From Desulfobacula sp. (lineage in GTDB: Bacteria; Desulfobacterota; Desulfobacteria; Desulfobacterales; Desulfobacteraceae): 64,000 bases of DNA. Position numbers and translations under genes: made by a program. Below, one piece after another: positions 4,181-61,765 of the stretch. The stretch is taken from positions 1-64,000 of the forward strand of contig JABGOU010000017.1 in the NCBI GenBank assembly GCA_018645325.1. The letters are read 5' to 3'. The notes under the pieces are model-generated. The model was given only the letters and a program-made list of their open reading frames with translations, made no database searches and had not been told where the DNA came from. How positions within the stretch are numbered: the stretch's first letter is position 1; each line of letters starts with the position of its first letter.

Positions 4181-4395
4181 TTCACCTTTTTCATTTAAAA
4201 TAATTTCTATTGTTTCCCACGCTTAACATAAGTTCTCCTTTCTTAATAGACCATTTTTTTAAAATATCATAAAAAATGTTCTTGATCATTTCGCATGGAT
4301 AGCTGCCCCCGGATTTGAAGGAACTATTATTTGAATCTTTTTAAATAAAGATTGCCAAGTGATAATTTGAATTATAAACAAAGAACATTAAAAAT

Positions 4396-10541: not shown

Positions 10542-10611
10542 TCGTTAAAAAAATAAATACCAATGTGCAAATTGAATAAAGGCGGATGTAAATCCAAGGT
10601 AAATGAAGGGG

Positions 10612-10712
10612 ATCGACTTTCCTTCGCCAGCATGACCTGGATCAGGTTCCAGGGGTCGAAACAAAATTTTTAGTTTCCTCTCAGCCGATATTATCGGCTC
10701 CCCCAGTCCACC
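10612..10712 (-). promoter_or_regulatory. TPP riboswitch (THI element) of the thiamine operon
   Basis: Read on the minus strand, the conserved TPP aptamer core is plain. GGGGGAGCC and GGCTGAGAGG form the first arm with the CTGAGA motif. GACCCCTGGAACCTGATC carries the ACCTGATC motif, and the GCTGGCGAAGGAAAGTC end closes the structure. It lies about 70 bases ahead of the ATPase gene. In this class TPP binding represses the downstream genes. I do not see a clear terminator between aptamer and gene, so control may act on translation. Confidence 0.93.
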
Positions 10713-10911
10713 AATGCATATTGCATAAGTAACAAAGAAGATATCACGGACCCGGCCAACTTGTCAATCACCAGATGGATATTGCTATTTTTGCCCTGAT
10801 AACTTGAAAAAACGATAATGATCAAGTAAAATTTCTTTGAAAAATTTTTTAGCTGTGGAGCTGAAAATGTCTATGAAAAAAATAACAATTTATTTATTCA
10901 GGTGAATTTAA

Positions 10912-39760: not shown

Positions 39761-40111
39761 GTGTTCAAGCAGATTAACGTTTACCGTTTCTATCTTTTGC
39801 CGGACAAAGAGAGAGAATCAAGTTGGTCTCCGTGAACGGCATCTTGAAAAATTTGATTTTGAATTTTCCTGTGTTGAATTTCCCATCAAGGCCTAAAAAA
39901 CAGTCCATACCAGATATGGTATTTTGGAAATATTCAAAAAGCCTGGACTGGTAAAAGAAATGCTCAGTAGTTTGTCGAATTTGACTCCTGACAAATGGCC
40001 AAAAGAATGTCAGATTACTGGGATTGGTTACATAGATAATAAAGTTTTTATTTTCATACCATATAAAAAATCCTTGACATATAGTTTGATATTTAGCATA
40101 AAAATTTTGAT

Positions 40112-40271
40112 TCTAGGTGCCTTTTAGAAAAGGCTTAAAAGGGAACCTTGTGAAAATCAAGGACGGACCCGCCGCTGTAATCGGAGACGAACGCTGCAAA
40201 CGTGTCACTGGTCATTTGACTGGGAAGGCGCAGCAAGTAGGATGAACCGAAAGTCAGAAGACCTACCTGGG
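40112..40271 (+). promoter_or_regulatory. Cobalamin riboswitch 1 (ahead of cbiK)
   Basis: The conserved B12 aptamer is clear. GGTGCC and GGCTTAAAAGGGAA open the structure. CGGACCCGCCGCTGTAATCGG and GACGAACGCTGC form the core arms, and the B12-box-like CACTGGTCATTTGACTGGGAA lies at 40206-40226. GGCGCAGCAAGTAGGATGA and GTCAGAAGACCTACCTG close it. It is followed by a strong terminator before cbiK. Cobalamin binding in this class lowers expression. Confidence 0.93.
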
Positions 40272-40332
40272 AATTTATAAAAGGTTATATTGACGGTAAC
40301 AACATAACCTTAATTTATGGATAAAAAACGCT

Positions 40333-41349: not shown

Positions 41350-41429
41350 AATAATAAGTCTGTAAATAATTTATTTTACTGAGTAAATATTATCATATAC
41401 TAAGATACAAATGTGTTGAATTGACGTTT

Positions 41430-41586
41430 TCAGGTGCCTTGGTAAAGGCTTAAAAGGGAACCCTGTGAGAGTCAGGGACGGACCCTCCGCTGTAATCGAA
41501 GACGAACGCTGCAAAAATGTCACTGGTCATTTGACTGGGAAGGCGCAGCAAGTAGGATGACGAGAAAGTCAGAAGACCTACCTGGA
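41430..41586 (+). promoter_or_regulatory. Cobalamin riboswitch 2 (ahead of cobO and the porin)
   Basis: This is a near-copy of riboswitch 1: GGTGCC, GGCTTAAAAGGGAACC, CGGACCCTCCGCTGTAATCG and GACGAACGCTGCAAA. About 44 bases, from GTCACTGGTCATTTGACTGG to AAGTAGGATGA, are identical. It then has GTCAGAAGACCTACCTGG. The high identity of the core points to a recent duplication of the regulatory unit. It is followed by a longer leader of about 300 bases with a terminator at 41758. Confidence 0.93.
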
Positions 41587-41757
41587 AAATGTGAGACCGT
41601 TGGAGTTGAGTATTCTGTAGAAGAGATGTTCAATCAGTTAAACTTGCCAGGATATTTTGCCGGGTACAAAAAGTTTATTATCTCGAATGCAGCGGTCTTG
41701 TGAAGTGTTTTTGCAGGGGAATGCAGACCTTCATATCATCTCATGGATAAAAAAGGG

Positions 41758-50063: not shown

Positions 50064-52529
50064 TCAGGCTTTAATCCTTTTCATTTCAGGATCATAGAAA
50101 GGCTTAAGAGACACTTTGGCCGGATAAATTGTCCCGGCAATATTAATTTCCCATTTCCCTTTGTCAATATAATCCTGATCAACGGGTTCATCTGCCTCGA
50201 TCATAAACAATCCAACTGCGCCACCAAGGGTGTAGCCATAAGAGCCGGATCTGACATAGCCTGCCGCCTTTCCATTCCTGCTGACAACTTCAGCGTGGAA
50301 GATCAATGGTTCAGGGTCTTTTACCATCACCTGGGCCAGACGTCTTGTCATTCCTTTCTGGGACTTTTTCTTAATACAGGCCTCTTTGCCGATAAATCCG
50401 GCTGGTTTGTCTAATTTAATGGTAAAGCCCAGCCCTGTTTCGTAAGGGTCATCCATATTGTCCATGTCATGACCATAATCTCTATACCCTTTTTCCATTC
50501 TTAAACTGCCAAGCGCCTTCAGACCTGCGTGACAAAGACCAAATTTTCCCCCGGCTTCAACAATAGTGTCATACACATGGACAGCCTGTTCCGTGGGAAT
50601 ATAGAGTTCATAACCCAGTTCACCCAGATAGGTCATCCTGACACAAATGGCACGTCCGTATCCAATGGCAATTTCCTGTACGTGTCTATAAGGGAAGGCC
50701 TCATTTGAAACATCTGAAGGTGTGATGGACTGCAAAAGCTCACGTGATTTGGGCCCCTGAATATTTAGTTGAGCATAGGCCGATGTCATATCCGTAACAA
50801 AGGCATGGGCATCAGCCGGAATATGCCGCTTTAACCAGGTTTCAGCATGGCGGTGCATGGTATCTGTAACAACAACCAGAAATTTTTCTTGTTCCAGCTT
50901 TGCAACCGTGAGATCTGCTTCAAGTTTACCATCCTCATTCAGCCAGGGCGTATAGGTAATCTGGTTAAGTTTGCCATCAACCTCGTTTGCTGAAATATAA
51001 TTCAGCACTTTGCCGGCATCCCTGCCCTGGACGTAAAATTTTGACATAAAGGACATGTCCATAATGATCACGTTCTCACGGGCAGCCTTATGCTCTTTTT
51101 CCCAGTAGGCAAACCAGTCAGCTTTACCCCAGGAATGGTTTTCAATTTTGGCTTGTTTTCCTTTAGGCGCAAACCAGTCTGCACCTTCCCAGCCGCTGAC
51201 ATCCTTAAAATAAGCGCCCTGATCTTTTAAACGATCATAAACAGCAGATTTTTTAGCTCCCCTGGCCGTGATCATGGATTTATAAGGATAATGGGCTTTA
51301 TATACCGTACCAAGGGATTCAACAGTTCTATGCTTTCTATATTCAGGGTTATTCTGAAAGGTGTGCAGGCGATCAATATTAAAGCCTGTAATATCGACAT
51401 CGGGTTTTCCGTTCATGATCCAGTGGGCCATCATCTTTCCCAAACCCGGGCCCATGATAATGCCGACGGAATTTAATCCTGCAGTCACAAAATAATTTTT
51501 CAACTCAGGAGCTTCACCAATGATGGCCGAAAGATCAGCCGTAAAACTTTCCGGGCCGCAGAAAAATTTCTTAATACCCAGTTCTTTGGTTATGGGCACC
51601 CTTGACATGGCTTTTTCCAGAAAAGGTCCCATTCGATCCCAGTCCGGTTCAATCTCGCCAAAGGAAAAGGTATTGGGAACATGTTTGATTTTCCATGGGG
51701 CACATACGGGTTCAAAAAGGCCGATCATAAGCCCGCCCACTTCTTCCCGATAATATCCATAGTGAGACGGGTCTTCCAAAACCGGCATATTTTTCGGGAT
51801 ATTGTCGATCTCTTCTGTGATCAGATAATAATGCTCCGCTGCCTGGTTGGGGATATTAATGCCGTCAACCTCTCCTATCTGCCTTGCCCACATTCCTGCA
51901 CAATTGACAACAACATCAGCCGCAATATCCCCATGGTCGGTTTTTACTCCAGCAACCTCACCGTTCTTTTTGATAACACGGGTTGCAGATACCCCTTCAA
52001 TGATATTGACACCCTGATTCCTTGCACCCTTGGCCAAAGCAATGGTGGCGTCCACAGGATTGACCCGCCCATCCTCTTTTACATAAAACCCTGCCAGAAG
52101 ATCATCCACCTGGGCTAAAGGGAAGAGGTCCTTGATCTCTTTTGGTGAAATTTCATTTACATCAATACCGCAGTATCGGTTAAATGCCGCCACCCGGCGA
52201 TATTCTTCCAACCGGTCTTTGTTGCTTGCCGCTTCAATAAAGCCAACGGGCTTAAAACCTGTTGTCAATCCCGTCTCAGCTTCCAGACTATTATAAAGAT
52301 CCCGGCCATAAAGGCGCATTTCACAGGCTGTTTCAGACAAAGAACCAAATGTCACCATCAGTCCTGCTGCATGCCAGGTAGTTCCCGAGGTTAATTCATC
52401 CCGCTCTAAAAGCACCACGTCTTTGCAGCCCATATGGCCCAGATGATAGGCAATTGAACAGCCGATGATACCACCACCGATGATGACAACTTTCGCTTGT
52501 TTGGGTAAGTTTATATTTTTTTTATTCAT
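50064..52529 (-). CDS. Dimethylglycine/sarcosine dehydrogenase-like flavoprotein with GcvT domain
   Basis: The 821-residue protein starts at 52529 (AAGGAAAA ahead of ATG); an upstream-extended frame would run through a hairpin repeat. The N-terminal DAO domain has VVIIGGGIIGCSIAYHLG and SGTTWHAAGLM, where the His corresponds to the covalent FAD site of dimethylglycine dehydrogenases. An FAO_M domain follows (about 370-430). The C-terminal GcvT-like half (from about 430, MSFMSKFYVQGRDAGKVLNYI, GYRDYGHDMDNMDDPYETGLGF) should pass the C1 unit to tetrahydrofolate. Downstream of pyrrolysine mttB, it probably oxidises dimethylglycine or sarcosine from betaine breakdown. Substrate choice is inferred. 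Confidence 0.88.
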   Translation of the reverse strand: MNKKNINLPKQAKVVIIGGGIIGCSIAYHLGHMGCKDVVLLERDELTSGTTWHAAGLMVTFGSLSETACEMRLYGRDLYNSLEAETGLTTGFKPVGFIEAASNKDRLEEYRRVAAFNRYCGIDVNEISPKEIKDLFPLAQVDDLLAGFYVKEDGRVNPVDATIALAKGARNQGVNIIEGVSATRVIKKNGEVAGVKTDHGDIAADVVVNCAGMWARQIGEVDGINIPNQAAEHYYLITEEIDNIPKNMPVLEDPSHYGYYREEVGGLMIGLFEPVCAPWKIKHVPNTFSFGEIEPDWDRMGPFLEKAMSRVPITKELGIKKFFCGPESFTADLSAIIGEAPELKNYFVTAGLNSVGIIMGPGLGKMMAHWIMNGKPDVDITGFNIDRLHTFQNNPEYRKHRTVESLGTVYKAHYPYKSMITARGAKKSAVYDRLKDQGAYFKDVSGWEGADWFAPKGKQAKIENHSWGKADWFAYWEKEHKAARENVIIMDMSFMSKFYVQGRDAGKVLNYISANEVDGKLNQITYTPWLNEDGKLEADLTVAKLEQEKFLVVVTDTMHRHAETWLKRHIPADAHAFVTDMTSAYAQLNIQGPKSRELLQSITPSDVSNEAFPYRHVQEIAIGYGRAICVRMTYLGELGYELYIPTEQAVHVYDTIVEAGGKFGLCHAGLKALGSLRMEKGYRDYGHDMDNMDDPYETGLGFTIKLDKPAGFIGKEACIKKKSQKGMTRRLAQVMVKDPEPLIFHAEVVSRNGKAAGYVRSGSYGYTLGGAVGLFMIEADEPVDQDYIDKGKWEINIAGTIYPAKVSLKPFYDPEMKRIKA

Positions 52530-52548: not shown

Positions 52549-52612
52549 GGGGTCAGGCTTCGCTTATTGTGGTTATTGAAATCAATAACCACAATAAGCG
52601 AAGCCTGACCCC
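52549..52612. repeat. 64-nt perfect hairpin repeat, copy 1
   Basis: Two 31-base arms pair perfectly around the loop AA, with the outer arm GGGGTCAGGCTTCGCTTATT and inner part GTGGTTATTGA. It lies between the mttB stop and the start of the flavoprotein gene. A second copy of the same length with the same twelve outer bases is at 61702. GGGGTCAG-ended hairpins of this kind are typical REP-like substrates of Y1 (RAYT) transposases, none of which is seen in the window. On the plus strand T residues follow. Confidence 0.85.
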
Positions 52613-52620
52613 TTTTTTTG

Positions 52621-54087
52621 TTAAATCCCCATTTGTTTTTCCGTTTCCACAACAATGGACCGGATCTTTGCAAGTACATCATCTGAAAGCTTTTCCGGTT
52701 TATGATTTTCCAGGATATATCTGACCTTTTCCATGGCTCTGTCATAAGCTGACATTGCACCTGCCTTTTCCCAGGTTCCCCTCATTTTGCGATCAATCAA
52801 TTCAGGTTTAGACTGGCTCCTCATATGTTTGAATGTGTGTTCGTGCATGAGATAATCCCCGCCCGGTCCCACCTCCTTGATAGGATCAATGGCAAGTGTC
52901 TCGTCATTTACAGGAACACCCTCAATTGTATGTTTAATCATACGAGCAAATTCACAATCTAAAACCAGCTGGCCGTAATCAAAAGTGATGCCGCTTTCAA
53001 GCATCCCGGCCCCATAAATCATATTGGCACCTGCCAATGCGGGTATAAGTCCGGTAAGGGTTTTTTCATGGCCAGTCTGGGTATCTGATATTTTACTGTC
53101 GCCCTACTGCCCGGCCACATAGCTTGGCAGGGCATAATATCGGGCAAGACGCGCCACTGCACCACTTATCACCGCACACTCAGGTGTGCCCACACTGGCT
53201 GAGGCAAGTTTTAAATCCATTGCAGTGGTGGAGCTTCCGTAAATAACAGGGGTTCCTCTCCGGGTAAGCTGTGCCAGCGTGATTCCGGAAAGAATTTCCG
53301 CATTATGATTCACAAGGGTGCCTGCCAGAGTTACAGGGGCTGTCCCGCCGGCCATGGCCATGGATAAAATATTACAGACCACATTGTTTTTCGCAGCTTC
53401 CATGATGATTTCACAACAGTCGGAAATCAGTTTTAACGGGCTCACAGGACAGGTTGTAAAAGAAACAAGAGGGCGTTTTTTAAATTCATTTACACCGCCG
53501 GCAATGGCTTCACCCATTTTAATGATTTTCTTTAAAAACTTACCGTTCCCCGGACCAAAAGCACAATGTTTTGTGGTATGGGTCAGATAAGCTTCAGCAT
53601 TGTGAAGGGGTACCGTATTCTGATTGACATCATGAGCACCAAGGGCTTTTTCGCAAAAATCAATTTCAGGAAGCGCATCAATTACTCTGGCGGAATCAAT
53701 CAAGTCTGATTTTACAGGACTTCTATTTTCTCCTGTATATGGATCATTTACCATGACGCCTTCACTGAAATTGGTAAAATAAACCCGGGTGGTTTCCAGA
53801 ACAATATCATGTCTGGGGTCACGGCCATACAGCACAACCTTGGGAGGCGCAGACCGAATGGCATCTTCCACCATTATTGGTGGAATCTTTACAATTTTTG
53901 TATCACGGTGAACAACAGCTCCACCCTCTTCAAAAAGATCCAGGGCATTTTCATCTTCCACAAAAATGCCTGTTTCATTGAGCACTTCAAGGGTTCCATA
54001 GTGAATCTCTTCCAGTTCATCATCTGTCAGAATATTGAGACTCAATCCGGATCCAAGCTGCCTTCCCGCATGAAAATTACGTTTCAT
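52621..54087 (-). CDS. mttB: Trimethylamine methyltransferase MttB with in-frame amber (pyrrolysine) codon
   Basis: Two frames in the same phase, 54087-53107 and 53103-52621, are separated only by TAG at 53104-53106. Text across it is PSYVAGQ-TAG-GDSKISDTQTGHEKTLTGLIPAL, as in archaeal MttB around its pyrrolysine. Counted from ATG 54087 (GAGGT upstream) the amber is codon 328 of 488 residues; in Methanosarcina the residue is near 334. MttB moves a methyl group from trimethylamine to its corrinoid protein. Length and all downstream motifs are intact, so this is read-through, not decay. No pyl genes or corrinoid-protein gene are in the window. Confidence 0.93.
53104..53106 (-). other. Amber codon probably decoded as pyrrolysine
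   Basis: TAG on the minus strand interrupts mttB at the catalytic site position. It lies within a conserved block, and the frame continues unchanged for 160 codons on the other side. The residue would form an adduct with the methylamine substrate in the known enzyme. It requires pylT and pylS elsewhere in the genome. Confidence 0.9.
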
Positions 54088-54330: not shown

Positions 54331-55119
54331 ATGGTAAAATTAAATACACAATTAAAACTTGGACTGTCGGATTATGCACTTACCGCCTATATTTCTCTGA
54401 CATCCAACCACCCGGTTAACGGTTCCCAGCTCAGCCGTCAGTCCGGAATCCCCCGTGCCAGGATATATGATGTTTTAGAAACATTAATTGCCAAAGGTTT
54501 TGTTATTGAGTCCAGCAAAAGTATGTACACACCCATTCCTTCCGAAGAATTTATTGGAAGGCTGCGCCAGGATTTTGAAGCCGTATTATCTTCCCTTGAA
54601 AAAAAAATCAAAAAAGCCCGACAAAAACCAGAAATTGATGTCATCTGGACAATAAAAGGATATTCCGCTGCAATGGGCAAGGCTAAAGAGATGATAAATA
54701 ATGCAAAAATAGAAATTTATATCAGGTTATCGCCAAAAGAAGGGCATTATCTGGATTCAAAGCTATTGGCAGCCGAGTTGCGAGGTGTACAGGTCAAATA
54801 TATTGCCATGGCACCTATCCCTCAAAAATTTAAATTTCAAATAATTCATCCTTGCCCTGAACCTTGCGAACAGGATTCAACAACAAGATTTTTTGATATT
54901 GTTGTTGATAAAGAAGAAATTTTATGTGGAATGTTTATTGAGGGAGATGATGAAGGCTCAGTTATCAACTGGGGTCAAAATAAAAGGTTTGTATTGTCCG
55001 GCAGAGACAGCCTGCGACATGATTTTTTCCATTATTTTCTTCATAAGATCCAGAACGAAAAAAAAATACTCACCCGTAAAGAAAATCTTCTTTACGAATT
55101 TATCCAGAAAGATATTTAG
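54331..55119 (+). CDS. TrmB-family transcriptional regulator
   Basis: The 262-residue protein has an N-terminal TrmB winged helix (about 10-75; LGLSDYALTAYISLTSNHPVNGSQLSRQSGIPRARIYDVLETL). A coiled coil (SSLEKKIKKARQK) and a phospholipase-D-like ligand domain (IEIYIRLSPKEGHYLDSKLL) follow. TrmB proteins respond to sugars or other small molecules and are common in methylamine gene neighbourhoods of anaerobes. It is divergent from mttB with a shared palindrome, so it probably controls mttB and the flavoprotein gene. Stop codon TAG. Confidence 0.88.
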   Translation: MVKLNTQLKLGLSDYALTAYISLTSNHPVNGSQLSRQSGIPRARIYDVLETLIAKGFVIESSKSMYTPIPSEEFIGRLRQDFEAVLSSLEKKIKKARQKPEIDVIWTIKGYSAAMGKAKEMINNAKIEIYIRLSPKEGHYLDSKLLAAELRGVQVKYIAMAPIPQKFKFQIIHPCPEPCEQDSTTRFFDIVVDKEEILCGMFIEGDDEGSVINWGQNKRFVLSGRDSLRHDFFHYFLHKIQNEKKILTRKENLLYEFIQKDI

Positions 55120-57209: not shown

Positions 57210-57495
57210 AATCCAATTATTGATACCCAATGCAAGGCGACAAGAAGTGACGAAAGAGGCCTAAGTCATACTCCCCAGGGAGGAACGACCGCAGTCAACG
57301 TAGCAGGTGGTACCTTGATGAAGGATCAGGGAACAAGTTTTAAAATCCCTTGACATCTGAAGGTGTTCTTTATACGTATCTTGGTTAGTAAAAACTACTC
57401 GGCCATTGATGTTTGTAATAAATTTAAAAGAACACTCCCGTAACAATTTGTTCCGGGATAATAAAAATCAATAGAAGATGAACAGGAGATTAATC

Positions 57496-58347
57496 ATGAA
57501 AAAAATGTTTCAAATCTGGGCTATGATCTCAGTGGTATTTCTTTTTTTTGCAGGCAATGCCATTGCTGGAAAATCCGCTCTTGAAGAAATCTATGCGGCC
57601 AAGACAATCGTTGTATCTACAGATGCCAACTACGCACCCCAAAGCTTTCTAAATGATAAAGGGGAGTTGGAAGGATTTGATGTCAGCGTTGCAAAGGAAG
57701 TTGCTAAAAGACTTGGAGTAAAGGTAAAATTCATTACCCCTGACTGGGATCTCATCACAGCCGGGAAATGGGGAAAACGATGGGATATTTCCATTGGATC
57801 CATGACCCCTACCAAGGAAAGAAAAAATGCTCTTTTGTTCACCCTGCCCTATTATAGTTCTCCAGCTCAGTTTGCCATTCATAAAGATAACACTGACATA
57901 AAAACTTTGGCTGATCTTGCGGGCAAACGAATTGGAATTGCCGGTGAAACAACCAATGAAAGATATCTTCAAAGAGATCTTTCCATTGAAGATGTTAAAA
58001 TTGTTTATCAGGACTGGAAACCAGGCAAGCTTCAAACCTATCCTACTGATGCCAATCACATAGAAGATTTATCCCTTGGAGACGGGCTGAGACTGGATGC
58101 AATTTTTTCTTCCAAACAAACCATTGCCGAGGCTATCCGTTCCGGATGCGGCAAAGGCTGCCCCATGAAAATGATAGGAGAACCTCCCTATTATGAACCC
58201 CTTAGTTTTGCCCTGGATAAAAGCCGGGCCAACAGCCAGACCCTGGTTGACAAACTCAACGAAGTTATAAAATCCATGAATGAAGACGGTACTTTGGTCA
58301 AGCTGTCTGAAAAATTCTATGGGACCAATTTGATCCCAAAATTATAA
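57496..58347 (+). CDS. Polar amino-acid-type ABC transporter binding protein
   Basis: The 283-residue exported protein starts at 57496, set by AGGAG seven bases upstream. The signal peptide (MFQIWAMISVVFLFFAGNAIA) precedes a family 3 binding fold: TIVVSTDANYAPQSFLNDKGELEGFDVSVAKEVAKRLG, ISIGSMTPTKERKNALLFTLPYY, LAGKRIGIAGETTNERYL. It serves the permease and ATPase that follow. The next genes include an MttB homologue, so a betaine-like amino acid is an attractive ligand, but this is inference. A long imperfect palindrome separates it from the permease gene. Confidence 0.88.
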   Translation: MKKMFQIWAMISVVFLFFAGNAIAGKSALEEIYAAKTIVVSTDANYAPQSFLNDKGELEGFDVSVAKEVAKRLGVKVKFITPDWDLITAGKWGKRWDISIGSMTPTKERKNALLFTLPYYSSPAQFAIHKDNTDIKTLADLAGKRIGIAGETTNERYLQRDLSIEDVKIVYQDWKPGKLQTYPTDANHIEDLSLGDGLRLDAIFSSKQTIAEAIRSGCGKGCPMKMIGEPPYYEPLSFALDKSRANSQTLVDKLNEVIKSMNEDGTLVKLSEKFYGTNLIPKL

Positions 58348-58618: not shown

Positions 58619-59485
58619 ATGATGGCCAAGACAATGCACCCTGGAGCAGCCGGCATTCCTCTGGAAGCCCAACAGGTCCTACAGCAAATTGAAACAAAAA
58701 AAACGAAATACAAACGAAATATGGCTATTGCTTTTGCTGTTTTGTTTGTTTTTATGATAACCGGCCTTATTGTTCTGGGACTTGATTTTAAGTTCATGGC
58801 AAAATGGCTTCCCTTTATCCTTGCCGGAAGCGGTTATACATTTCTGGTAGCCTTTCTGGCCATATCCCTGGCCTGCATTCTTGCTGTGGTGGGAGCTCTG
58901 GGCCGGCTTTCAAAAAACCCTATTTTTAACAGTATCGCCACATCCTATGTATCCCTTATTCGAGGAACTCCTCTTCTGGTCCAGATTTACATGTGGTATC
59001 TGGCTCTGCCTCAGATAGGCAAAGCTCTGGAAGGGTATGGTATTCCTGGTATTCAGCGCCTCTTAACACTTCCTGCTGTGCCGGCAGGTATCCTGGCCCT
59101 TGGGGTCTGTTATGGTGCCTATATGACGGAAACCGTTCGTGCCGGTATCCAGTCCATAAAAATCGGTCAGACTGAAGCTGCAAAAGCTTTGGGCATGACC
59201 ACTTCCCAGACCATGAAAAGGATAATTTTTCCCCAGGCATTACGGGTAATTATTCCACCGGTTTCCAATGAGTTTATTGCCATGATCAAGGATTCTTCCA
59301 TGGTTTCTCTTATGGGGGTGTGGGAGATGTCCTATAGGGCACTAAAGATTGGAAGACGTCATTTCCAATCCCTTGAGATGCTGATCATGGTGGCATTTAT
59401 TTACTGGATCATGTGCGTTCTTTTACAATTTTGCCAGGAAAAAATTGAAAAACACATGGCCCGGGGCGACAGGAGGATATCATGA
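58619..59485 (+). CDS. Polar amino-acid-type ABC transporter permease
   Basis: The 288-residue membrane protein of the HisM/GlnP class has an N-terminal cytoplasmic stretch of about 35 residues ([20 protein letters not shown]), then about five helices. [23 protein letters not shown] and [23 protein letters not shown] are recognisable. The EAA loop is [31 protein letters not shown] near 183-213. AAGGAG is placed before the ATG pair at 58619. The stop overlaps the ATPase start by four bases (ATGA). Confidence 0.92.
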
Positions 59486-60246
59486 TGGAAAATTCAACTA
59501 CCATGGTAAAAATCACAAATGTTCACAAGGTGTTTGGTAAAAAACTTCATGTACTTTGCGGAATCAATCTTGAAGTGAAGAAAGGTGAGACTGTTGTTAT
59601 TCTTGGCGCTTCAGGTTCAGGAAAAAGTACGCTTTTGCGGTGCATCAATTTCCTTGAAGAACCAACGGCCGGAACTATTGAAGTAGATGGGATTACCATT
59701 ACTGCCGGCGAAGATGATAAGAAACGGGAGAATCATATTCTGGACATCCGTAAAAAAACAGGTATGTGTTTTCAGTCGTTTAATCTTTTCCCCCATATGA
59801 CAGTATTGGAAAACATTATTGAAGGACCCATAACCGTGCTGGGCCAGAAAAAAAAGCAGGCTGTTCTTTATGCTGAAGAACTTCTTGACTGGGTGGGACT
59901 GACTGAAAAACGCGAGGAACACCCTTCCCGTCTCTCCGGCGGCCAGCAGCAGCGGGTCGCCATTGCCAGAAGTCTTGCCATGAAGCCCAAAGTCATGCTG
60001 TTTGATGAGCCCACATCTGCACTGGACCCCGAACTTGTGGGTGAGGTAGTAGATGTGATGGAGCGTCTTGCCAAGGAAGGTATGACAATTATTGCAGTAA
60101 CACACGAAATGCATTTTGCCAGGGATGTGGCTGACCGAGTCCTGATTATGGACGAAGGGGTCTGGATCGAAGAAGGGACTCCGGAAAAAATTTTCAATAA
60201 TCCCGATCAAGAAAGAACCCGACAATTTCTGGCCCATATACTTTAG
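59482..60246 (+). CDS. Polar amino-acid-type ABC transporter ATPase
   Basis: The 254-residue GlnQ/HisP-type ATPase has Walker [10 protein letters not shown] near 38-46, a Q loop in [18 protein letters not shown], signature [13 protein letters not shown], Walker [20 protein letters not shown] and switch His in [13 protein letters not shown]. It completes the importer with the binding protein and permease. The next gene, an mttB homologue, begins 27 bases later on the same strand, so transporter and methyltransferase are one operon. Stop codon TAG. Confidence 0.95.
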
Positions 60247-60272: not shown

Positions 60273-61688
60273 ATGTTTGACGTGAAACCAGAGATAAGGG
60301 TAATGAACCGGGAACAGACTCAAAAGGTTCATAATGATGCGCTGGCGATCCTTGAGAAAACCGGTATTATGGTTGATGATCCCAAGGCTTTGGCCTTGTT
60401 TGAAAAAGCCATTGGGAAACAAAGCAAGAATCATCGCATCCGGATTCCCGAAGAGCTTGTCCAATGGGCAATAAATGCTGCCCCATGTGAAACAAAAATT
60501 TTTGACCGTCTGGGCAATCCATGTTTTACGCTTAATGGAGATGGAACAAGGGAAGCAGTTTTTGGGATCGGTGTAACCAACCTCCATTATCAAGACCCGC
60601 TTAAAAATGATATCCAGCCATTTTTCCGGCATCACATGGCTGCTGCCACAGGCCTGGGAAATAGTCTTGATAACTTTGATTTTATTTCAACGCCTGGGGT
60701 AATCCAGGATATTTCTTCTGAAACAGCCGATCTATATGGCGTCTTAGAAATGATGGCCAATACCACCAAACCTTTGGTGATACTTATTTCCGATTGGGAT
60801 TCTTTTAATCCGGCTTTGGATCTTTGTGAACATCTTGTGGGTGATATATCCACACATCCATTTCTTATACCCTATGTAAACCCGATTACGCCGCTCACCT
60901 TAAATTCTGAAACCACAATGAAAATGGATGCATCTATTAAAAGAGGACTACCCCTTATTTTTTCCAATTATGGCATGTCCGGGGCCACCTGCCCGATAAC
61001 ACCGGCTGGAACCCTGGCTCTTCTTACGGCGGAACTACTTGCAGGATTAACGTATAGTCAACTTGTGAAAGAAGGTGCCCCCATCATTTTAGGAAGCCTT
61101 CCTGCTGCCTTTGACATGAAGAAAGCCGGAAGTTTTTACTCTCCTGCCACATTATTATTGAATCTGGCCTGCGCAGAAATGATGACCTCCTATAAGATTC
61201 CCCACTGCGGGACCTCTGGTAGCGCTAATGGCTGGGGTGCTGATCTTCTTGCCGGGACAACCCTTTGTATCAACCATTTTTCAAGCTGTCTGGGCAAAGC
61301 CGGCATGATTCCTTTTGTGGGCGGCAGTTTTGACTCTCTGGTTTTTTCCCCTGAACTTGTGGTATATAGCGACGATGTGATTCACCAGTCAAGACTGTTT
61401 GCTTCAGGGTTTTCTCTGGATGATGACGCAGTGGGGTTTTCAGACATATCCAATATCGGGCCAAAAGGTAATTTTCTTTTATCAGACCTTACAGCCAAAC
61501 ATTTCAAGGATTCACAGTTTTCAAGTACAATCTGGCCGTTTTTAAGCCTTGATAAATGGAGAGAAAAACATGAACCTGATGCTAAAAAAATATTAAAAGA
61601 CAAAACGATAGAACTATTGAACAACCCTGTTGCCCCAAAAGACAAAGATGAGATCCTATTAAAAGGTGAAGCGTTTTTAAAAAATTAG
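60273..61688 (+). CDS. MttB-superfamily methyltransferase without pyrrolysine (betaine-type)
   Basis: The 471-residue protein aligns with MttB over its whole length (QTQKVHNDALAILEKTGIMVDD, CPITPAGTLALLTAELLAGLTY, GAPIILGSLPAAFDMKKAGSFYSP) and has no amber. Where MttB has pyrrolysine the text is HCGTSGSANGWGADLLAG. Such amber-free members demethylate quaternary amines such as glycine betaine, proline betaine or carnitine and pass the methyl group to a corrinoid protein. It is in one operon with an amino-acid-type importer, which would supply the substrate. The exact compound is open. It ends in TAG, a few bases ahead of a hairpin repeat. Confidence 0.87.
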   Translation: MFDVKPEIRVMNREQTQKVHNDALAILEKTGIMVDDPKALALFEKAIGKQSKNHRIRIPEELVQWAINAAPCETKIFDRLGNPCFTLNGDGTREAVFGIGVTNLHYQDPLKNDIQPFFRHHMAAATGLGNSLDNFDFISTPGVIQDISSETADLYGVLEMMANTTKPLVILISDWDSFNPALDLCEHLVGDISTHPFLIPYVNPITPLTLNSETTMKMDASIKRGLPLIFSNYGMSGATCPITPAGTLALLTAELLAGLTYSQLVKEGAPIILGSLPAAFDMKKAGSFYSPATLLLNLACAEMMTSYKIPHCGTSGSANGWGADLLAGTTLCINHFSSCLGKAGMIPFVGGSFDSLVFSPELVVYSDDVIHQSRLFASGFSLDDDAVGFSDISNIGPKGNFLLSDLTAKHFKDSQFSSTIWPFLSLDKWREKHEPDAKKILKDKTIELLNNPVAPKDKDEILLKGEAFLKN

Positions 61689-61701: not shown

Positions 61702-61765
61702 GGGGTCAGGCTTTCCTTATTGTCGTTGTTGAGTTCAACAACGACAATAAGGAAAGCCTGACCCC
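61702..61765. repeat. 64-nt perfect hairpin repeat, copy 2
   Basis: Same build as copy 1: two 31-base arms around a two-base loop (GT), outer bases GGGGTCAGGCTTTCCTTATT. Compared with copy 1, five or six positions of one arm differ, each with a matching change in the other arm, so pairing is kept. Extra partial GGGGTCA and TGACCCC words flank it on both sides (61688-61694, 61773-61780). It lies between the convergent mttB-homologue and thiolase genes. Confidence 0.85.

Follow-up and report, generated by a model that had tools for sequence, protein, structure and literature searches.

An amber-interrupted mttB gene in a Desulfobacula genome, predicted to be read through with pyrrolysine

Does the in-frame TAG of a putative trimethylamine methyltransferase gene in Desulfobacula sp. 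end the protein, or is it read as pyrrolysine? The gene, mttB, lies in a window of 64,000 nucleotides (the whole stretch of DNA that was analysed). It runs on the minus strand from an ATG at 54087 to a TAA ending at 52621, which gives 488 residues if the TAG is translated. Its frame shows a single interruption, the TAG at 53106-53104 (codon 328), and plus-strand frame 1 of 52621-54087 is filled with stops throughout. With the TAG as a stop, the product would have 327 residues; mechanical ORF calling divides the gene into two pieces of 333 aa and 138 aa. An earlier interpretation of the DNA (the sequence-only reading) had placed the TAG at 53104-53106 with both flanks in one frame, had given the local sequence as SYVAGQ, amber, GDSKISDTQTGHEKTL, and had expected automated annotation to split the gene. 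These statements agree with our analysis, which adds the strand, minus, that had been left unstated. The following features define the gene:

52621..54087, minus strand: mttB, predicted amber-coded trimethylamine:corrinoid methyltransferase (TIGR02369, PF06253, 7xcl/7xcm alignment)
53104..53106, minus strand: in-frame TAG, codon 328 (opposite X of 7xcl; TAG in 8/8 close orthologues including its own)
53007..53106, minus strand: match to Rfam PYLIS_3, pyrrolysine insertion sequence of mttB (78.1 bits, gathering 38, E 2.9e-14)

The read-through protein reaches 739.8 bits against TIGR02369, the trimethylamine methyltransferase equivalog model, more than 200 bits above the cut-off of 525, and 321.7 bits against PF06253. 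It aligns over its full length (residues 2-484, E about 1e-119) to the solved MttB chains 7xcl/7xcm, with codon 328 exactly opposite the X of the 7xcl chain, where the 7xcm chain has K. The X of 7xcl is taken as pyrrolysine. The TAG had been assigned to the catalytic pyrrolysine region of MttB and codon 328 described as close to the known position; the alignment places it on that very residue, and the 78.1-bit PYLIS_3 match begins at the TAG and extends onward. Because this stretch is also conserved coding sequence, the PYLIS_3 match is a site label and not proof of an RNA signal.

If the TAG were a genuine stop or had arisen from a sequencing error, mttB would be broken, in keeping with the two pieces from ORF calling and with the use of TAG as an ordinary stop elsewhere in the genome. 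Against this, codon 328 is TAG in 7/7 close orthologues from other genomes (90-93% identical). The dN/dS ratios against these seven orthologues (Nei-Gojobori method) are 0.052-0.067 upstream of the TAG and 0.071-0.121 downstream, which indicates purifying selection on both sides of the codon. Family model, TAG at the catalytic position and conservation among orthologues together identify the gene at 54087-52621 (minus strand) as a predicted pyrrolysine-type mttB. The position of the codon was also compared among 19 amber loci, with TAG at position 328 in 18 of them and at 333, by ungapped count, in one (L081). The amber context of the latter, AGG-amber-ADSK, marks the same site as 328, the value of 333 being an effect of a count uncorrected for gaps; five further loci in that comparison have no amber inside.

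The genome of the window (G000; 4.39 Mb in 157 contigs, 90.3% complete, contamination 3.0%) holds 17 MttB-type matches at E 1e-60 by hand count, five with one TAG and 12 without. In all five amber paralogues (the window gene and those on C134, C35, C57 and C88) the TAG falls at position 328 of the window MttB. A hand count over 38 genomes gave 115 MttB-type matches, 36 with a stop inside; this stop is TAG in 36/36, which again argues against a broken gene. Two of the 36 also have TGA, one of these two being a fragment that ends before position 328. Amber mttB occurs in 12/14 genomes with at least one pyl gene vs 0/24 without (38 genomes; Fisher p 3e-8), an association among relatives that are not independent and weakened by the fact that MttB matches at E 1e-60 occur in only 6 of the 24 pyl-free genomes. 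For the 20 genomes that do have such a match, the figures are 12/14 with pyl vs 0/6 without (p 7e-4). No amber MttB match was found in the pyl-bearing relatives G019 and G022 (79% and 81% complete, respectively), and a scan of viral sequences with MttB found no relative. In two relatives mttB lies near the pyl operon, ~2.6 kb (G005) and ~4.3 kb (G013) from pylT. G023, a member of the same order outside the genus, has ten amber MttB-type matches, two of them at contig ends and one with a TGA as well.

The genes for decoding such a codon were sought throughout G000. Contig C90 carries PylSc (C90:7149-7883, 319 bits, cut-off 178) and, directly after it with a 4-base overlap, PylC (393 bits, cut-off 248); an intact PylB lies on C103 (508 bits, cut-off 348). 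ARAGORN, run on a longer stretch of C90, found a 74-nt tRNA-Pyl(CUA) at C90:640-713 on the minus strand, with an anticodon arm (CATGGA-CTCTAAA-TCCATG) whose stem has six pairs. This tRNA gene stands directly after mtbB, a second amber gene, on C90, with TAG at codon 349 and a PYLIS_2 match of 77 bits. Hence the tRNA gene is present together with pylSc, pylC and pylB, three of the usual set of five protein genes for pyrrolysine, and pylSc, mtbB and mttB are open frames under purifying selection. The presence of tRNA-Pyl and PylSc genes speaks further against a broken mttB, which we regard as extremely unlikely. A genome-wide check for pylT, pylS and pylBCD had been proposed by the sequence-only reading, which had also made its claim depend on a pylT or pylS being present. 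Both tRNA-Pyl(CUA) and pylSc were found, as were pylC and pylB; the search recovered neither pylD nor an intact pylSn. There is good genomic support for describing the host as a candidate bacterial user of pyrrolysine, a description that is not new for the group (PMC8318568).

Several searches gave no usable match. A strict IUPAC pattern for pylT had no match in the whole genome, and a tRNA search of the window and two short loci returned no tRNA-Pyl; the early absence of pylT was a miss of the pattern and of the stretch chosen, as the ARAGORN result on the longer C90 stretch demonstrates. Weak PylSc-like matches of 23-27 bits were rejected, the search giving hits in 13/14 control genomes and exceeding the cut-off in one. 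We also dropped a PYLIS_3 match of 27 bits in an amber-free mttB homologue on C90 (gathering 38) and a mir-136 match (30 bits, gathering 64) from the same Rfam scan as the C90 PYLIS_3 and PYLIS_2 matches. The PylSc scan of named genomes gave two loci, one of them useful, and the aligned insertion regions of mttB and mtbB have nothing useful in common beyond the TAG.

The profile search for PylD in the 90.3%-complete G000 gave a best match of 23 bits (cut-off 150), and none was accepted; the weak PylD-like matches (20.9-23.4 bits) were rejected, all being partial, far below 150 and from a search that gives hits in 10/14 control genomes. Likewise, no intact PylSn was found in the assembly, where the single match is a remnant of 33 codons (25.8 bits, cut-off 51). 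Read at face value, these results would fit a decaying pyrrolysine system, in which pylD and pylSn are truly lost and the amber genes are read poorly or not at all, and so would the eroded cassette on C103 described below. The nearest relative, G014 (Candidatus Desulfobacula maris), points elsewhere. Its mtbB is divided between contigs C377 (JACNHV010000369.1) and C16, whose ends have an exact 55-base overlap, and the order on C16 after mtbB is pylT, a thioesterase-like ORF (label by eye), pylB, pylD and pylSn. On C90 of G000, mtbB is followed by pylT and the matching ORF; a second pylB then begins, of which 17 codons precede the contig end. The terminus of C90, MKIDRNKKKHIGILHKA, matches the start of the second pylB of G014, MKKVENKKKHAAILQKA, after which pylD and pylSn come next in G014. 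Furthermore, G014 DNA ~1 kb past pylSn matches G000 C23:2748-4044, and C23 also ends soon after, at 4300; its last 256 bases, taken as the other flank of the gap, have no match to G014. If the order is kept, ~3 kb would be unassembled between the ends of C90 and C23, with room for pylB-pylD-pylSn.

All 11 other PylSc-bearing genomes (of 38 searched) have both PylD and PylSn matches. Since C90 breaks inside pylB precisely where G014 has pylD-pylSn, C23 is a probable other flank and the 11/11 PylSc genomes are complete in this respect, the absence of pylD and intact pylSn is likely to reflect a gap in the assembly, a strong but indirect case. With pylSc, mtbB and mttB all open and under purifying selection, a system in decay appears very unlikely, and an assembly gap in a predicted functional system is preferred.

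The pyl genes of the relatives fall into more than one arrangement. Two types of tRNA-Pyl, of 73 nt and 74-75 nt, are tied to different pyl gene orders. The 73-nt type goes with pylT-pylSn-pylB-pylC-pylD-pylSc in several members of the genus, namely G004, G005, G013, G018, G019 (pylSc cut by the contig end) and G002 (wider spacing). Outside the genus, in G023 and G029, the 74-75-nt type goes with pylT-pylSc-pylB-pylC-pylD-pylSn; within the genus, the 74-nt type occurs in G000 and G014 with a rearranged cassette. G014 has both types (L059:7408-7481 and L060:7725-7797) but one PylSc match at E 1e-40. On C103 of G000 (L007 15594-15713), the pylSn remnant of ~33 codons, cut off and with one in-frame TAG, stands directly before the intact pylB, at the place where G014 has an intact pylT-pylSn-pylB. 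This surviving pylB has a dN/dS of ~0.23 vs G014, whereas no pylT was detected in this cassette: a pylT remnant sought beside the eroded pylSn gave 7-base matches only. The 73-nt-type cassette of G000 thus seems nearly erased, a second pyrrolysine cassette eroding gene by gene. Two other observations concern these cassettes. G010 (C11 and C205; 96% complete) has two tRNA-Pyl and two PylSn with contig ends close by, and gave no match to PylSc or PylD above the thresholds applied. A repeat of ~75 bases right after pylT in G014 (L059 7334-7411) has matches on C57, C80, C85 and C88 of G000 and was not found after the pylT of G000 itself.

Because the genome holds genes for a CUA tRNA-Pyl and PylSc, pyrrolysine is the predicted reading of the mttB TAG, and mttB likely encodes a functional trimethylamine methyltransferase (probability about 0.93). 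Charging, decoding, activity and substrate are what we infer from these genes, along the following lines. PylB, PylC and PylD, the last probably encoded in the gap, would make pyrrolysine from lysine; PylSc, normally with the help of PylSn, would charge the CUA tRNA; and the charged tRNA-Pyl would read UAG 328 to give the 488 residues. The pyrrolysine ring would then bind a methylamine, with transfer of the methyl group to a corrinoid protein whose gene lies in another part of the genome: none was matched on the contig of the window, and ten corrinoid-protein matches, two above cut-off, were found elsewhere in G000. TAG also ends ordinary genes. In a mechanical ORF set from 120 kb, TAG is the stop of 15/90 long non-overlapping ORFs, two of the 15 being the amber genes. 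For three neighbours in the window with a terminal TAG, the distance to the next in-frame stop is 12, 49 and 70 codons. Decoding would therefore be selective or incomplete.

The substrate is assigned by family only, as probably trimethylamine, and the surroundings of mttB bear on this assignment. The following features were identified around the gene:

50064..52529, minus strand: FAD-dependent oxidoreductase fused to an aminomethyltransferase (GcvT) domain (Pfam DAO 224, GCV_T 244, GCV_T_C 63 bits)
52549..52612, no strand assigned: perfect inverted repeat with 31-nt arms and a 2-nt spacer (GGGGTCAGGCTTCGC...), between mttB and the FAD-GcvT gene
54331..55119, plus strand: TrmB-type transcriptional regulator, divergent (PF01978 55 bits, PF11495 35 bits)
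57478..58347, plus strand: amino-acid type ABC substrate-binding protein, lysine/arginine/ornithine-like (TIGR01096 121 bits, below cut-off 256)
58619..59485, plus strand: ABC permease, transporter of 57478..58347 (ORF, label by eye)
59482..60246, plus strand: ABC ATPase, transporter of 57478..58347 (TIGR03005 EhuA 301 bits, below cut-off 345)
60273..61688, plus strand: MttB-superfamily methyltransferase without amber, glycine-betaine-methyltransferase-like class (PF06253 184 bits; TIGR02369 204 bits, cut-off 525)

The FAD-GcvT gene, which we take to be dimethylglycine/sarcosine-dehydrogenase-like, lies immediately downstream of mttB in the same orientation and adjoins it in 6/8 close orthologues, the remaining two being cut by contig ends. 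Its C-terminal half matches the NCBIfam models for GcvT and trimethylamine N-oxide demethylase, all below their cut-offs. This conserved pairing with DAO and GCV_T domains, together with five amber MttB paralogues in the genome and no corrinoid match on the contig, would suit a window paralogue that carries pyrrolysine and acts, with the adjacent oxidoreductase, on another N-methyl compound. The equivalog score, more than 200 bits over the TIGR02369 cut-off, favours trimethylamine, and the FAD-GcvT protein could take the products of amine demethylation without defining the substrate of MttB. To our knowledge, the amber MttB enzymes characterised so far all act on trimethylamine. We consider another substrate unlikely and retain trimethylamine as the predicted one.

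The TrmB-type regulator also stands beside mttB in G014, G005 and G021, the ABC permease is near mttB in the relatives G004, G010, G013 and G018, and the neighbourhood includes a histidine-kinase-like ORF (labelled by eye) on the strand opposite mttB. The 31-nt inverted repeat recurs in nearly the same form past the second MttB homologue (61702-61765) and is not present in the same mttB/FAD-GcvT spacer of G014. Its 17-base core occurs as two-arm copies on C95 and C136 and as single arms on C24 and C86; presumably it is a dispersed REP-like palindrome. Further away in the window are two cobalamin riboswitches (40098-40284 and 41416-41599, plus strand), fitting for a genome with many corrinoid methyltransferase genes, and a TPP riboswitch (10602-10714, minus strand).

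A broader reading would hold that the genus runs two pyl cassettes with two tRNA-Pyl types, that this organism is in the course of losing one of them but retains its pylB, and that its five amber MttB are split by substrate, the window one being coupled to the FAD-GcvT protein as an oxidative demethylase. Taken jointly, these propositions are speculative and probably do not all hold; if they did, pyrrolysine would serve an N-methyl metabolism wider than trimethylamine alone. The two cassettes, the two tRNA types and the apparent gene-by-gene erosion offer a natural series on the gain, duplication and loss of code expansion within one bacterial genus. The locus itself is a correct call, from DNA only, of a recoded stop at which routine gene prediction breaks the gene into two, and it extends the set of bacteria with predicted pyrrolysine use in methylamine metabolism by one Desulfobacula-related genome.

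Like the solved MttB structures 7xcl, 7xcm and 7xcn, which we take to be archaeal, from Methanosarcina, the window MttB is alignable over residues 2-484, with its TAG opposite the X of 7xcl. The archaeal pyrrolysyl synthetase is one chain. The non-pyrrolysine members (glycine betaine methyltransferase 9yce; 2qne) belong to the same superfamily as the window MttB without the amber, and G000 has amber-free MttB-type proteins of its own, namely the 12 at E 1e-60 and that of 60273-61688, which lies far below the TIGR02369 cut-off. In methanogens the methyl group goes on to coenzyme M (PMC8318568). Entry of the methyl group into the Wood-Ljungdahl pathway is a proposal of the same paper.

The closest comparison is with the Desulfobacula-related Deltaproteobacteria bbl-31/bbl-16, for which Kivenson, Paul and Valentine 2021 described an amber trimethylamine methyltransferase with pyrrolysine at 327 of 485 (PMC8318568). 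Also encoded in the bbl-31/bbl-16 locus are a transcriptional regulator, a binding protein for lysine, arginine and ornithine, two components of ectoine-type ABC transport and a glycine-betaine-type methyltransferase that lacks pyrrolysine. It has a cognate corrinoid gene within ten genes and proximal pyrrolysine synthesis genes, whereas the contig of the window has no corrinoid match and no PylSc, PylSn or PylD match. The FAD-GcvT gene and the eroded second cassette are features of the present genome, and the consulted portion of that paper contains no mention of them for bbl-31/bbl-16. Its survey of related genomes reports up to five trimethylamine methyltransferase copies per genome together with an amber dimethylamine methyltransferase; G023, in comparison, has ten amber MttB matches. 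These ten, the two tRNA-Pyl types and the eroded cassette may be less known, as far as a non-exhaustive literature search indicates. In its core, with pyrrolysine predicted at codon 328 of 488 here vs 327 of 485 there and much the same locus content, the window locus is very similar to the published Desulfobacula-related loci and is of an already known kind (PMC8318568).
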